Source: Chitiniphilus shinanonensis DSM 23277
Lineage (GTDB): Bacteria; Pseudomonadota; Gammaproteobacteria; Burkholderiales; Chitinibacteraceae
Length of the DNA: 64,000 bases
Reading direction: 5' to 3'
Assembly (NCBI RefSeq): GCF_000374805.1
Contig: NZ_KB895335.1
Coordinates: 124,001-188,000, forward strand
The first letter of the stretch is position 1; each line of letters opens with the position of its first letter. Below the pieces are notes generated by a model, which did no database searches, was not told the origin of the DNA, and saw only the letters and a list, made by a program, of their open reading frames with translations. A program made the translations under genes and the position numbers. This document shows positions 12,134 through 31,022 of the stretch, in pieces.

Positions 12134-13549
12134 ATGAAGCAGTCTCTTCAGCTCAAGCTGTCGCAGCAGCTCAACCTCACCCCGCAATTGCAGCAGTCGA
12201 TCAAGCTGCTGCAACTCTCCACACTCGAATTCCGCCAGGAGATCGAACGCTACCTGATCGAAAACCCCTTGCTGGAACCCGGCGAGGATCGCGGCGAAGG
12301 CCCAGGCGACGGCGAGGGTGACGCCCCAGCCGAATCGACCGGCGACGACAGCGGCAGCGAATACGGCGCCGAAGGCGACGACTGGAACTGGGGCAACGGT
12401 TCCGGCGGTGGCAGTGGCGGGCAAGGCGACGACGACGATTTCGACCCGGCCTCCAATACCGCCCGCGAGCTGACGCTGCGCGAACACCTGCTGGAACAGG
12501 CCGGACTGCTGCCGCTGCCCGCGCTGGACCGCGCGGTGCTGGGCCTGCTGATCGACGCCCTCGACGACGACGGCTTCCTCACCCAACCGCTGGAAGAGAT
12601 CTTCGCGCAGCTGCCCGAGGAACTCATCGCCGAGACCGGCCTCGAACTGGAGGACCTGTCGGTGGCGCTGGCCCGGATCAAGCAGTTCGAACCGATAGGT
12701 GTCGGAGCGCGAGATATGGCCGAGGCACTGGCAATGCAACTGCGCCAGCTGCCGGCGGATGACATCCGTCAACTGGCGCTGCAATTGGTCGAGGGGCATC
12801 TCGATTTACTCGCGGCGCGTGACTACACTAGGCTCAAGAAAGCACTCAAGTGCGACGACGCGCAGCTCAAGGCGGCCAACACGCTGATCGTGGGATTGAA
12901 CCCCCGGCCGGCGGCCAGATGGGCGGCGCTGACACCCCGCTACGTGATCCCCGATGTGATCGTCTACAAGGCGCGGGGCAAGTGGCGGGCAAGGTTGAAC
13001 GAAGCGGCACGACCGCGTTTCAGGGTGAACCGGATGTACGCCGATATCCTGCAACGTAGCGAAGGTGGGGTGCTGGCGCGGGAACTACAGGAGGCCCGCT
13101 GGCTGGTGAAGAGCGTGCAACAGCGTTTCGACACCATCCTGCGAGTCGCCGAGGCGATCGTGGCGCGGCAACATGCGTTCTTTGAACACGGCGAGGTGGC
13201 GATGCGGCCGATGGTGCTGCGCGACATCGCCGAAGAGCTCGAACTGCACGAATCGACGATTTCGCGGGTAACGAGCCAAAAGTATCTGCATAGTCCAAGG
13301 GGACTCTTCGAATTCAAGTACTTCTTCGGCAGCCACGTCGAAACCGAAGCCGGCGGTGAATGCTCGGCGACGGCGATCAAGGCCATCATCAAACAGCTGA
13401 TCCAGAACGAGGACAAGAACAAGCCGCTTTCAGACAGCGCGCTCGCCGAGACGCTGTCGAGGCAAGGGATCGTGGTTGCGCGGCGAACCGTTGCCAAGTA
13501 CCGGGAAGCGATGCAGATCGCCCCCGTCAATCAGCGCAAAACCCTGTAG
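12134..13549 (+). CDS. rpoN: RNA polymerase sigma-54 factor
   Basis: 471 residues. The Gln/Leu-rich activator-responsive region I (1-50, opening MKQSLQLKLSQQL) is followed by an acidic, Gly-rich region II (about 55-115), the core-binding domain, the HTH and the C-terminal RpoN box ARRTVAKYRE (449-458). It directs transcription from -24/-12 promoters with enhancer-binding proteins. The downstream hpf, ptsN and hprK form the usual rpoN regulatory neighbourhood. Confidence 0.97.
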   Translation: MKQSLQLKLSQQLNLTPQLQQSIKLLQLSTLEFRQEIERYLIENPLLEPGEDRGEGPGDGEGDAPAESTGDDSGSEYGAEGDDWNWGNGSGGGSGGQGDDDDFDPASNTARELTLREHLLEQAGLLPLPALDRAVLGLLIDALDDDGFLTQPLEEIFAQLPEELIAETGLELEDLSVALARIKQFEPIGVGARDMAEALAMQLRQLPADDIRQLALQLVEGHLDLLAARDYTRLKKALKCDDAQLKAANTLIVGLNPRPAARWAALTPRYVIPDVIVYKARGKWRARLNEAARPRFRVNRMYADILQRSEGGVLARELQEARWLVKSVQQRFDTILRVAEAIVARQHAFFEHGEVAMRPMVLRDIAEELELHESTISRVTSQKYLHSPRGLFEFKYFFGSHVETEAGGECSATAIKAIIKQLIQNEDKNKPLSDSALAETLSRQGIVVARRTVAKYREAMQIAPVNQRKTL

Positions 13550-13612
13550 GGTGGGCGTCGCTTCCTCGGCGGCACCACGTCACGCGGGGATCAACGCAGA
13601 AGGAGCAGACTT

Positions 13613-13936
13613 ATGAACCTCAAACTCAGCGGACATCACCTGGAAATAACCCCGGCAATTCGCGAATACGTCACCAACAAGGTGGAACGTATTACACGCC
13701 ACTTCGATTCCGTGATCGACGTAGGCGTGATCCTCTCGGTGGAGAAGCTGCAGCATAAAATTGAGGCTACCGTGCATGTACGCGGTCGTGACATCCATGT
13801 CGAAGCCATCGACGAGGATATGTACGCCGCCATCGACCTGCTCAGCGACAAGCTGGATCGCCAGATCGTCAAGCACAAGGAAAAGCTGATGGATCATCGT
13901 GGCGAAAGCATCAAGCACCAGGCTGTCGCGGAATAA
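13613..13936 (+). CDS. hpf: Short-form ribosome hibernation promoting factor
   Basis: 107 residues, the short HPF/YfiA type that binds the 30S decoding region and promotes 100S dimers in stationary phase. The N-terminus MNLKLSGHHLEITPAI and the central HVRGRDIHVEA segment are typical. An AGGAG ribosome binding site precedes the ATG. A strong terminator follows, ending the rpoN-hpf transcript. Confidence 0.95.
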   Translation: MNLKLSGHHLEITPAIREYVTNKVERITRHFDSVIDVGVILSVEKLQHKIEATVHVRGRDIHVEAIDEDMYAAIDLLSDKLDRQIVKHKEKLMDHRGESIKHQAVAE

Positions 13937-14038: not shown

Positions 14039-14506
14039 ATGAGCCTGATATCCAAGATCTTGCCCAGTTCGAACGTTTTCCTGGAGATGGACGTCGGCAG
14101 CAAGAAGCGCGTTTTCGAGCAGGTGGGCATCCTGTTCGAGAACAGCCACGGCATCGCGCGCAGCGTGATCTTCGACAGCCTGTTCGCCCGCGAAAAGCTC
14201 GGTTCCACCGGTCTGGGCCAGGGCGTGGCGATCCCGCACGGCCGGATCAAGGGCCTGAAGGAAGCCACCGGCGCCTTCGTGCGGCTGAAAACCCCCATTC
14301 CGTTCGACGCGCCCGACGGCAAGCCGGTCTCGTTGATCTTCGTGCTGCTGGTGCCCGCCAACGCCACCGACCTGCATTTGCAGATCCTGTCCGAACTGGC
14401 CCAACTGTTCTCGGACAAAACCATACGCGACCAACTCGCCGCCAGCGAAGACACGGCGGCCACCTGGAAGCTCATCACCAGCTGGGAGCCGTACTCGGCG
14501 CTGTGA
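14039..14506 (+). CDS. ptsN: Nitrogen-PTS EIIA component (EIIA-Ntr)
   Basis: 155 residues. It is a regulatory phosphocarrier linking nitrogen/carbon status to K+ transport and other targets. The phosphorylated His is His67 in VAIPHGR, and the LGSTGLGQG loop before it is typical. It sits after rpoN-hpf and before hprK, so phosphotransfer and HPr-kinase control are encoded side by side. No sugar-specific EIIB/EIIC occurs in the window. Confidence 0.95.
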   Translation: MSLISKILPSSNVFLEMDVGSKKRVFEQVGILFENSHGIARSVIFDSLFAREKLGSTGLGQGVAIPHGRIKGLKEATGAFVRLKTPIPFDAPDGKPVSLIFVLLVPANATDLHLQILSELAQLFSDKTIRDQLAASEDTAATWKLITSWEPYSAL

Positions 14507-14631: not shown

Positions 14632-15576
14632 ATGCCGCAGATCACCGTACGCCAGCTCTTCATCGACAACGCCGAGAAACTCCGGCTCACCTGGGTCGCC
14701 GGGCAATCGGGCGCCAACAGCCTGCTCACCAACGACGCCAGCGAGCAGAAGCCCAAGCTCGCGCTGGTCGGTCACCTGAACTTCATCCACCCCAACCGGG
14801 TGCAGGTCCTGGGCATCGCCGAGGTCAATTACTTCCAGGGCCTGTCGGCCGACGCGCAGAAGGAGTCGGTCGAGCGCCTGTTCGCCAACGAGATGGCGGC
14901 GATGATCGTCGCCAACAGCCAGCCGGTGCCCGACGCGCTCAAGGAAGCCGCCGAGCGCTACCACGTTCCGCTGCTCACCTCGCCGGAGCAGTCGCCGTAC
15001 CTGATGGACGTGCTGCGCTACTACCTGTCGAAAGCGCTGGCGGTCTCCACCCACCTGCACGGGGTATTCCTCGACGTGCTGGAAGTGGGCGTGCTGCTGA
15101 CCGGCGAGTCATCAATGGGCAAGAGCGAACTGGCGCTGGAACTGATCTCGCGCGGCCACGGCCTGGTAGCCGACGACGTGGTCGAGGTCTACCGCACCAA
15201 CCCCGAAACCCTGGAAGGCCGCTGCCCACCGATGCTGCGCGACTTCCTCGAAGTGCGCGGGATCGGCGTGCTGAACATCCGCACCATCTTCGGCGAAACG
15301 GCGGTGCGGCCGAAGAAAACCCTCAAGCTGATCATCCACCTGGCCAAGGCCAGCGGCGAAACCCTGGCGCCGATCGACCGCCTGCAGATGCAGGCCGCCA
15401 CCCAGGAAATCCTCGGCGTGCCGATCCGCAAGCTGGTGATCCCCGTGGCCGCCGGCCGCAACCTCGCCGTGCTGGTCGAGGCCGCCGTGCGCAACTACAT
15501 CCTGCAACTGCGCGGCATCGACTCCACCCGCGAGTTCATCGAACGCCACCAACGTTTCATGGAAATGGGCGAATGA
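14632..15576 (+). CDS. hprK: HPr kinase/phosphorylase
   Basis: 314 residues. It phosphorylates and dephosphorylates HPr on Ser46. Walker A is GESSMGKS (158-165), the HLHG catalytic-region His residues are at 141-143, and the family signature [10 protein letters not shown] is at 206-215. Its presumed substrate is the HPr encoded at 27.3 kb, which has Ser46 in the expected context. The stop overlaps the rapZ start as ATGA. Confidence 0.96.
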
Positions 15577-26930: not shown

Positions 26931-27326
26931 ATGGTCGGAATCGTCATCGTTACCCATGTCAGCCTCGGTGAAGCGCTGATTTCGTGTGCCCAGCACATCA
27001 TGGGTCGTCCGCTCGACAATCTGGCGCAACTGGCCGTCAGCAAGGCCGACGACCCGGACGACGTGGTACGCCGCGCCCGCGAGCTGGTGCAGTCGCTCGA
27101 CGACGGCTCGGGCGTGCTGCTGCTGACCGACATCTACGGCGGCACCCCGTCCAACGTCGCCAACCGCCTGATCGAGCCGAACCGGGTCGAGGCCGTGGCC
27201 GGCGTCAACCTGCCGATGCTGGTCCGGGCGCTCACCTATAGTCATCAGTCGCTGGAAGTGGTCGTCAGCAAGGCGATCACCGGCGGCCTGGAAGGCGTGC
27301 TCTACATGCTGCCGCCGCTCGAGTAA
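26931..27326 (+). CDS. PTS EIIA component, mannose/fructose (EIIA-Man) family
   Basis: 131 residues, a stand-alone EIIA-Man domain. The phosphoryl-accepting His9 lies in VTHVSLGEAL, and the LLTDIYGGTPSN segment forms the active-site wall. No EIIB, EIIC or EIID partner is nearby, so it probably has a regulatory role, as in other betaproteobacteria where EIIA-Man, HPr and EI form a sugar-free phosphorelay. ptsH follows after 18 bp. Confidence 0.92.
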   Translation: MVGIVIVTHVSLGEALISCAQHIMGRPLDNLAQLAVSKADDPDDVVRRARELVQSLDDGSGVLLLTDIYGGTPSNVANRLIEPNRVEAVAGVNLPMLVRALTYSHQSLEVVVSKAITGGLEGVLYMLPPLE

Positions 27327-27344: not shown

Positions 27345-27617
27345 ATGACGCAACAGGAAGTCGAAATCGTCAACAAGCTCGGCCTGCATGCCCGGGCGTC
27401 GAGCAAGTTCACCCAACTGGCCAGCCAGTTCAGGTGCGAAGTATGGATCACCCGCAACCAGCGGCGCGTCAACGCCAAATCGATCATGGGCGTGATGATG
27501 CTGGCCGCGGGCAAGGGCAGCAGCATCATCATCGAAACCGACAACGGCCCGGATGAGCGGGAAGCCATGGACGCGCTGGTCGCGTTGGTGGCGGACCGCT
27601 TCGGCGAGGGCGAGTAA
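27345..27617 (+). CDS. ptsH: Phosphocarrier protein HPr
   Basis: 90 residues. His15 in LGLHARAS is the EI-phosphorylated residue and Ser46 in NAKSIMGVMML is in the context used by HPr kinase, which is encoded at 14.6 kb. It passes phosphate from EI to EIIA proteins. It lies between EIIA-Man and ptsI in one operon. Confidence 0.96.
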   Translation: MTQQEVEIVNKLGLHARASSKFTQLASQFRCEVWITRNQRRVNAKSIMGVMMLAAGKGSSIIIETDNGPDEREAMDALVALVADRFGEGE

Positions 27618-27639: not shown

Positions 27640-29359
27640 ATGGGCATCACGCTGCACGGCATCGGCATCGGCGGAGGCGTCGCCATCGGGCACGCCCACG
27701 TGATCTCGCACAACGAGATCGAGATCGCGCACTACACCATCGCCGAGCAGGACGTTCCCCAGGAAATCGCCCGCTTCGACGGCGCCATCCGCCTGGCGCG
27801 ACAGGAGCTGGAAACGCTGTGGGGCAGTATTCCCGAGCATGCCCCCGCCGAGCTGGGCGCCTTCCTCAGCCTGCACATCATGCTGCTGAACGACCACACG
27901 CTGACCGCCGAGCCGCACCTCATCATCGAGGCCCAGCACTGCAACGCCGAATGGGCACTCAAGCAGCAGCTCGACATCCTGCTGGCGCAGTTCGACGAGA
28001 TCGAAGAGGAATACCTGCGCGAGCGCCGCGCCGACGTGATCCAGGTGACCGACCGCATCTTCAAGGCGCTGGCCGGACACCACAGCCAGCCCCCGGCGCC
28101 GGCGCGCCCGGACAGCATCCTGGTGGCGCACGACCTGTCGCCCGCCGACATGGTGCTGTTCAAGGACACCGAATACCACGCCTTCATCACCGACGTCGGC
28201 GGCCCCACCTCGCACACCGCCATCCTGGCGCGCAGCCTCGACCTGCCGGCGGTGCTGGCGCTGCGCCATGCCCAGGCGCTGATCCGCGAGGACGAGCTGA
28301 TCATCGTCGATGGCATCAACGGCGTGGTCATCGTCGACCCCGACGAGCAGGTGCTGGTGGAATACCGCGCCCGCCAGAGCGACTGGCAGGCCAGCCAGCG
28401 CGCATTGCAGGACATCCGCTACGCCCAGCCGGTGACGCGCGACGGCGAGGAGATCGAGCTGCTGGCCAATATCGAGCTGCCCGCCGACACCGCGCAGGCG
28501 CTCGCCCAGGGCGCCAGCGGCGTCGGCCTGTTCCGCTCCGAGTTCCTGTTCCTGCGCGACGAGGACGACCTGCCCACCGAGGACGAACAGTTCGAGGCCT
28601 ACCGCCAGGTGGCCGAATCGATGCAGGGCCACCCGGTGGTGATCCGCACCATCGACCTGGGCAAGGACAAGATCCCCAAGTGGCAGGAGGAAAGCGATTC
28701 GCCCAACCCCGCGCTGGGCGCTGACCGGCATCCGCCTGTGCATGGCCGAGACGCAGTTGTTCCGCACCCAGTTGCGCGCGCTGCTGCGCGCCTCGGCCTA
28801 CGGCAAGATCAAGCTGCTGGTGCCGATGCTGTCCAATCTGAACGAAGTGCGGCAGACCCGCCGCCACCTGGAAGAGATCAAGGAACAGCTCGCCGCCGAC
28901 GGCATTCCGTTCGACGCCGGCATCGAGCTGGGCGGGATGATCGAAGTGCCGGCGGCCGCGCTGACGGTGGGCGCCTTCCTCAAGCAGCTCGACTTCGTCT
29001 CCATCGGCACCAACGACCTGATCCAGTACACGCTGGCGGTGGACCGCAACGACGACGCGGTGTCCTACCTGCACGACCCGCTGCACCCGGCGGTGATCCA
29101 GCTGCTGCACCACGTGATCAGCACCGCCGACCGCATCGGCAAGCCGGTGTCGATGTGCGGCGAAATGGCCGGCGACCCGCAACTGACCACCTTGCTGCTG
29201 GCGTTGGGCCTGCGCCGCTTCTCGATGCTGCCGGCCCAACTGCTCAAGGTGAAGCGCCGCATCCTCGACGCCGACATGGGCAAGTTGCAGCGCGCCGTTC
29301 CCGAACTGTTGCAGGCCGAGGACGCCAACGCCGTCCGCGCCCTGCTGGCCGATTTGTAG
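27640..29359 (+). pseudogene. ptsI: PTS enzyme I (PEP-protein phosphotransferase) with apparent +1 frameshift
   Basis: Read as one gene it would give about 572 residues (E. coli EI: 575). The N-terminal HPr-binding and phospho-His domain has His192 in GGPTSHTAILA. The PEP-binding TIM barrel continues to NPALG near residue 360, then the frame breaks at about 28719-28725: seven bases occupy the place of the usual six-base LR pair of the LGLRGIR motif. From 28731 the normal sequence resumes in the next frame (IRLCMAETQLFRTQ) through IGTNDLIQYTLAVDRN to MCGEMAGDP at the active-site Cys. Either a real frameshift mutation or a sequencing/assembly error; both halves are otherwise intact. Confidence 0.85.
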
Positions 29360-29393: not shown

Positions 29394-31022
29394 TTGACCG
29401 ACCCGGACGAGCAGGACATCGACGCCGACATCGCCCAGCGGCTGGCCGAAGCCAAGGCGATGTTCGCGCCCAAGTGCGAGGAATGCCTGACGCTGGCGAC
29501 CCAGGTCGCCACGCTGGCCGCCCGCCACGGCAACGTGCGCGCCGAAGCCGAGGCGCGGCTGTGGTGGGGCCGCTCGCTGCTGGTGATGATGGGCGCCGCG
29601 CCCGCCCTGCCGGTGCTGCGGCGCGCGCTGCGACTGGCGCTGGAGCTGGACGACAAGCGCCTGCTGGCCGACGTGCACCTGTCGCTGGCGCAATGCCACG
29701 TCGGCAGCAACACCCCCGCCGCCTTGCAGAACTGGCTGAAGAGCCTGGAACTGGCGTTGCAGATCGACGCCGTCGACCTGTACGCCGAGGTCTACCTGGG
29801 CATCGGCAATCTCTACCTGCTGCACGACGACCTGAATTCCGCGCTGCACTACCACGCCATCGCTACCGAGTTCGCCAGCGCCCAGCGCGACCGCGACCTG
29901 CGCGCCAAGAGCAACATCCATCTGGCGTCGATCCTGGTCAAGCTGGAACGCCACGCCCTGGCCGAGCACGTGCTGCACACCGCCGAGGCCGAATTGATCC
30001 TGCCGCTGCGCCGCGACTGGCAGGCGGAGATCTACAACTACCTGGGTGCCATCCACATGCGCCAGCGCCACGTGGAGCAAGCGCGGGATTTCCTCGAACG
30101 CGCCTACGCCATCAACCTGGACGCCGGCTTCCTGTGGGGACAGACCGTCAACCTGCTCGGGCTGGGGCAACTGGCGCGCGCCCAGGGCGACGACGTCCAG
30201 GCCGAGCAATACCTGCTGCGCGCCACCGAGGTGGTCGCCAAGTTCGAATCGCCCAACCTGGTGCAGCAGATCCACCTGGAGCTGTCGCAGCTGTACGAGG
30301 CGCGCGGCGACTTCGTGCGCGCGCTGATGCACCACGTCGGCTACCACGACCACTACATGCTGATCATGAAGAACGATCTGTCGGCGCGCCTGAACAGCCT
30401 GGCCTCGCGCCGGCTGGCCGCGGCCGAGATCCGCCTCAAGCTGCTGTCGTCCGAGATCGAACTGAGCCAGCTGCGCCAGCAGACCAGCGAGCGCGCCTCG
30501 CGCATGAAGCAACTGGAAGCCGCCGCCTACCGCGACGCGCTGACCGGCGTGCTCAACCGCCGCGCACTCGACGAGCGCCTGCCGCTGGAGATCCAGGAAG
30601 CGCACGAGCAGGGCTACCCGCTGTCGGTGGCGGTGCTCGACTTCGATCATTTCAAGCACGTGAACGACCGTTTCTCGCACCTGATCGGCGACAAGGTGTT
30701 GCAGGCCGGCGTGGCGCGGGCGCAGGAAACGTTGCGCGACGGCGACCTGCTGTACCGCTACGGCGGCGAGGAATTCGTGCTGGTGCTGCCGCACACGAAC
30801 GCCATCGGCGCGCTGCATGTGGCCGAGCGGGTAAGGTCGCGGGTGGCGGAACACGACTGGGACAGCATCGTCGCCGGCCTGTCGGTCACCATCAGCGTCG
30901 GCGTCGCCATGCTGAGCGACGACGACCAGGTGGAGGACATCGTCGGCCGTGCCGACGCGGCGCTGTACCAGGCCAAGCAGGGCGGCCGCAACCGTGTCTT
31001 CATGCAAAGCGAGGAAGCATGA
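29394..31022 (+). CDS. TPR-GGDEF diguanylate cyclase
   Basis: 542 residues from a TTG start at 29394 preceded by AGAGGGGG. The N-terminal part (about 1-350) is a tandem TPR-type helical repeat, followed by a coiled coil (about 360-395) and a GGDEF domain. The active-site motif is GGEEF (457-461), with an RDGD product-inhibition site five residues upstream. It makes c-di-GMP in the cytosol. No membrane segment or receiver domain is present, so input is likely protein binding through the TPRs. It lies 34 bp after ptsI. Confidence 0.93.
   Translation: MTDPDEQDIDADIAQRLAEAKAMFAPKCEECLTLATQVATLAARHGNVRAEAEARLWWGRSLLVMMGAAPALPVLRRALRLALELDDKRLLADVHLSLAQCHVGSNTPAALQNWLKSLELALQIDAVDLYAEVYLGIGNLYLLHDDLNSALHYHAIATEFASAQRDRDLRAKSNIHLASILVKLERHALAEHVLHTAEAELILPLRRDWQAEIYNYLGAIHMRQRHVEQARDFLERAYAINLDAGFLWGQTVNLLGLGQLARAQGDDVQAEQYLLRATEVVAKFESPNLVQQIHLELSQLYEARGDFVRALMHHVGYHDHYMLIMKNDLSARLNSLASRRLAAAEIRLKLLSSEIELSQLRQQTSERASRMKQLEAAAYRDALTGVLNRRALDERLPLEIQEAHEQGYPLSVAVLDFDHFKHVNDRFSHLIGDKVLQAGVARAQETLRDGDLLYRYGGEEFVLVLPHTNAIGALHVAERVRSRVAEHDWDSIVAGLSVTISVGVAMLSDDDQVEDIVGRADAALYQAKQGGRNRVFMQSEEA

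Follow-up and report, generated by a model that had tools for sequence, protein, structure and literature searches.

EI of the general type (PtsI), represented here by the E. coli (2hwg) and S. aureus (2wqd) proteins, is commonly conserved at Arg358, a residue that is not used as a defining criterion of EI in the sources at hand. A published account describes Arg358 of E. coli EI as contacting the phosphoryl group of PEP (PMC5537066). Two further described systems are close to the one analyzed here. The incomplete PTS of Neisseria meningitidis is described (PMC5031443) as having consecutive locus tags for EI, HPr and a mannose-type EIIA, together with a separate fructose-type EIIA. The FruB-type fusions of Pseudomonas are multi-domain proteins with their own HPr and EI that could in principle feed other PTS proteins, and PtsN is reported to be able to receive phosphate from fused PTS proteins in this genus (PMC13104625, PMC3562155).

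We analyzed a stretch of 64,000 nucleotides (the window; contig NZ_KB895335.1, positions 124,001 to 188,000) from Chitiniphilus shinanonensis DSM 23277, of the Chitinibacteraceae (Neisseriales by NCBI ranks), whose genome, denoted as G000, is a draft of 4,151,628 bases in 42 contigs. The gene order in the window is EIIA-Man (26931-27326, + strand; PF03610, E=2.4e-21), HPr (27345-27617, +; PF00381, E=5.1e-30), ptsI and a TPR-GGDEF protein (29394-31022, +; PF00990, E=7.2e-44). EIIA-Ntr (PtsN; 14039-14506, +; PF00359, E=5.2e-35) and HPr kinase/phosphorylase (14632-15576, +; PF07475, E=4.3e-66, and PF02603) are encoded apart from them. HPr, HPr kinase, EIIA-Man and EIIA-Ntr had been predicted to be intact, and all four are indeed open frames with full domain matches. 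The arrangement resembles that published for N. meningitidis, both in the grouping of EI, HPr and mannose-type EIIA and in the separate fructose-type EIIA, and the one Neisseria-labelled EI that we read (L044, from a metagenome-assembled genome) is without Arg358 like that of Chitiniphilus. In contrast with the incomplete system of N. meningitidis, that of Chitiniphilus also includes PTS permeases as well as a second EI in fused form. Compared with general EI, the window copy of ptsI has a frame break, and Chitinibacteraceae carry Thr at position 358 and Lys at position 338.

The ptsI gene is encoded in two frames

The ptsI gene spans 27640-29359 (+) and codes for EI up to 28719 and anew from 28727, in different frames. 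The N part (27640-28719, 360 residues; TIGR01417 1-355) holds the N-terminal domain, the mobile His domain and the first third of the PEP-binding domain (PF05524, PF00391 and PF02896 4-107), while the C part (28727-29359, +; TIGR01417 359-565; PF02896 110-291) holds the remaining PEP-binding domain. The EI domain order is thus the same as in E. coli and S. aureus EI, and it runs across two frames instead of the single continuous reading frame of a working copy. Between the two parts, at 28717-28723 (+), the window has one surplus base when aligned with two relatives of the same genus (G001 and G002), and the mismatches on both flanks hold a single codon phase in the coordinates of the relatives. 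The frameshift with one surplus base that the original prediction had read from the window alone is therefore supported by the same-genus alignments as well as by the two TIGR01417 halves in different frames. The break is not marked by an early stop, since the N frame is open as far as 29397. The start codon listed first for the C frame, an ATG, lies at 28742, and no ribosome-binding site was seen upstream of it by eye. The hexamer GCGCTG at 28711 is repeated at 28718, at the break, and no long homopolymer is present at the site.

As assembled, the gene encodes 360 normal residues followed by about 225 out of frame. Together, the two parts of ptsI keep every residue that aligns with E. coli H189, R296, R332, E431, N454, D455, R465 and C502, as in general EI, and the assembled protein is without those aligned with E431, N454, D455, R465 and C502. 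With most of the PEP-binding domain gone, this copy should yield no working EI and would not be able to take phosphate from PEP. A programmed ribosomal frameshift, or another form of recoding, would give full-length EI from the same gene and would be in line with the conservation of both flanks. This explanation seems extremely improbable, considering that none of the 22 family relatives read shows the arrangement and that the N frame has no stop codon at the site.

A second EI is present as an EIIA-HPr-EI fusion

It had been proposed that the phosphorelay would lack its entry enzyme, and a look for a second EI in the genome had been suggested. Such a gene was found elsewhere in the genome, where a single open frame next to a PTS permease gene encodes an EIIA-HPr-EI fusion (G000:C1:90153-91823). 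The fused EI keeps the aligned catalytic His and Arg358, and Arg358 is kept in all three genomes looked at (G000, G006 and G023). A second EI-like match occurs in 43 of 43 family genomes, and G023 is the only one in which the EI part of it is shortened, to a frame of 447 residues. There, in a single-contig genome, the fusion gene is split into two overlapping frames (L173:5183-7775, +), and ptsI is in one frame.

The Chitiniphilus fusion shares with the FruB-type proteins of Pseudomonas a multi-domain make-up that includes an HPr and an EI. It differs from them in having an EIIA of PF00358 type and a neighboring permease that is closest to glucose IIBC, whose score of 576.8 bits falls below the cut-off of 647 because the locus contained only 403 residues of it. 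A NagF-like name for the fused EI was rejected on account of this adjacent permease and of the location of the GlcNAc IIABC (683.5, cut-off 553.2) on another contig. A trehalose-type IIBC on another contig scored 581.2, just below its cut-off of 591.95. Cross-talk from the fusion to the regulatory PTS proteins is putative; by analogy with Pseudomonas, it is plausible that the fused EI rescues the regulatory branch. It may still supply PEP-derived phosphate, in which case the cell would tolerate the break in ptsI. The physiological conclusion first drawn from the frameshift was accordingly overstated, and that interpretation is partly supported.

Either a very recent break or an assembly error

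To date the break, we placed codon changes on the branches leading to G000 and G001, using those codons for which G002, as outgroup, allowed a placement. On the G000 branch there are 31 synonymous changes and no nonsynonymous one (N part 17/0, C part 14/0); the corresponding counts on the G001 branch are 70 and 9 (36/6 and 34/3). By a rough neutral count, 31 synonymous changes would be accompanied by about 81-94 nonsynonymous ones, which leaves an unconstrained share of at most about 3-4% of the G000 branch. Considering the 31/0 changes, the break is either very recent or an assembly error.

In the latter case, an error of sequencing or assembly, the ptsI of the strain would be normal and nothing would be broken. 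The rest of ptsI is free of decay and the draft is in 42 contigs, as would be expected, and an error fits every sequence fact equally well. Against it, there is no long homopolymer at the site, where errors in length most commonly arise, and no crowd of like breaks that would signal a poor assembly is found nearby. The latter was seen in a phase test of G000 against G001 over 141,850 aligned bases. The test requires enough mismatches on both sides of a gap, so that it covers the sufficiently diverged stretches. Twelve of the 77 testable non-triplet gap clusters were flagged, five with a single gap and seven with 7-50 gap columns, among which further breaks may lie. In the single-gap class, ptsI was the only flagged site away from gene ends; 97122, 16212 and 78891 are gene ends, and 127328 falls at the EIIA-Man stop by coordinate. 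Against G002 (78,237 bases), 7 of 24 clusters were flagged, namely ptsI, the HPr stop, the EIIA-Man/HPr gap, the rpoN-hpf gap, the gene end at 78891 and two multi-gap clusters.

A screen for split open reading frames (ORFs) gave 12 matches for G001 ORFs in G000 and 20 for G000 ORFs in G001; comparisons involving G002 yielded 6, 6, 4 and 1. After removal of overlaps, 10 and 15 remained, respectively, together with 3 for G002 ORFs against G000 and 4 against G001; these were judged by identity. With at least 85% identity on both sides, the comparisons between G001 and G000 retained only ptsI and one other, and the latter (window about 13440-13933) was rejected as a shadow ORF across the non-coding rpoN-hpf gap.

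The alternative to an error is a genuine insertion of a single base into ptsI, very recently, in the sequenced strain. The recurrence of the hexamer at the break is what a misalignment of the template could give, although the repeat is short and could be due to chance. The first 360 residues would then be made as normal and about 225 would follow out of frame, the activity of this EI would be lost, and the fused EI would compensate, with the loss of Arg358 being unrelated and earlier. We regard this whole sequence of events as an even call, and the assembly error as falling a little short of one; the odds of a real recent mutation and of an error are roughly the same.

Breaks in ptsI are rare among relatives

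Of 43 family genomes, that of the window among them, 41 encode ptsI in a single frame, the exceptions being G000 and G006; the control gene rpoN has a single frame in all 43. A second rpoN-like gene with 43-44% identity was observed in two genomes of one genus (G003:C48:11421-12782 and G013:C1:2015028-2016383). The ptsI of G006, a single-contig genome (L154:3781-5510, - strand), carries a separate one-base break around codon 70, at a different place from that of G000, with both flanks coding, as seen against five relatives. When G006 was compared with G023 over 45.6 kb in clusters of up to 6 gaps, ptsI was the only single-gap flag, along with one cluster of 5 gaps; a bad assembly of G006 was rejected on that basis. 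In a wider set drawn from the GTDB-style order, 145 of 150 genomes matched at E<=1e-90, a cut-off at which breaks leaving just short pieces would escape detection. Besides G000 and G006, partial ptsI rows came from G161, G133, G113 and G071, the last two at contig ends.

It could be considered that ptsI is dispensable in the family and is knocked out repeatedly, or adaptively, in isolates, and the separate break in G006 would be an instance of this. We find such recurrent loss very unlikely: two of 43 is few and the other 41 keep the frame, ptsI is not clearly special when the fused EI is split in one of 43 (G023) and rpoN in none, and the G000 branch has no nonsynonymous changes. Because of the break in G006 and the split fused EI in G023, the G000 break is not unique among the 43 family genomes. 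Breaks in ptsI are rare, and two cases give no trend.

The absence of Arg at position 358 is shared by a clade

In the alignment, the E. coli EI motif LGWRAIR, which includes Arg358, corresponds to LGLTGIR in Chitinibacteraceae, and in the window the codon at this position is a Thr codon in the C frame (28724-28726, +). A change of the conserved Arg codon had been counted as part of the damage. We matched 24 family relatives, of which G012 and G023 gave no locus, and the codon is Thr in all 22 that were read. Alignments and tree alike show that this residue is common to relatives and is no lesion, so the initial observation of a frameshift with a changed Arg is, as a whole, partly confirmed. 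Corrected reads had also been expected to restore LGLRGIR, and the relatives read L-G-L/M-T-G-I/V-R, or Cys in place of Thr. Since the altered residue is common to them, an intact copy would not show LGLRGIR. Family members retain the remaining active-site residues of the alignment.

Among 40 further genomes from the 145 (20 best-scoring outside the family and 20 hand-picked), we found 7 with Thr, 8 with Cys and 25 with Arg. We then constructed an EI tree from an alignment stripped of positions 338, 358 and 359, using 30 loci, the best 80 of at least 575 confirmed stretches and these 40; 149 of the 150 rows were used, as L088 (Arg) was dropped for coverage, and at least three row pairs come from the same genome (L039/L006, L040/L014 and L030/L203). 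The 42 non-Arg rows, window included (34 Thr and 8 Cys), form one clade with a support of 1.0 that has no Arg row inside, and the other 107 rows are all Arg. The name Neisseriales for this clade rests on L039, L040 and L044, the only three of its rows that NCBI ranks as far as order. A title search of the open-licence literature found no paper on the loss of Arg358 in Neisseriales EI. On the simplest reading of the tree, Arg would have been lost once, in an ancestor of the Neisseriales clade and before Chitinibacteraceae arose, and would not be part of the lesion; the gene would have remained under selection with Thr or Cys.

Position 338 is Lys in 26 of 26 rows of the Chitinibacteraceae clade and Arg in 3 of 3 rows of one other family, and neither Lys nor Arg occurs there in any of the 107 Arg358 rows. 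A base at 338 as a general compensation for Arg358 was rejected, because the remaining 13 non-Arg358 rows have Ala, Thr or Val. We tentatively suggest, at somewhat less than even confidence, that EI of the Neisseriales clade is a distinct variant that lost Arg358 once and works without it, maybe as a slower or lower-affinity PEP sensor for a regulatory phosphorelay in which Lys or Arg338 would partly make up for the lost charge in two families, while sugar transport in Chitiniphilus can use the fused EI with Arg358.

Taken all together, the frame break serves mainly as a caution: the lesion is one of the strain or of the assembly, and the genome encodes another EI. The break is ordinary, and the loss of Arg358 from a gene that is still conserved is more interesting: the residue is absent in 42 of 42 clade rows and present in 107 of 107 outside, with purifying selection seen in the one branch tested. 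EIs of this clade are natural variants with which the role of Arg358 in coupling PEP binding to EI dimerization could be probed, and they bear on whether regulatory and transport EIs differ in their sensitivity to PEP.
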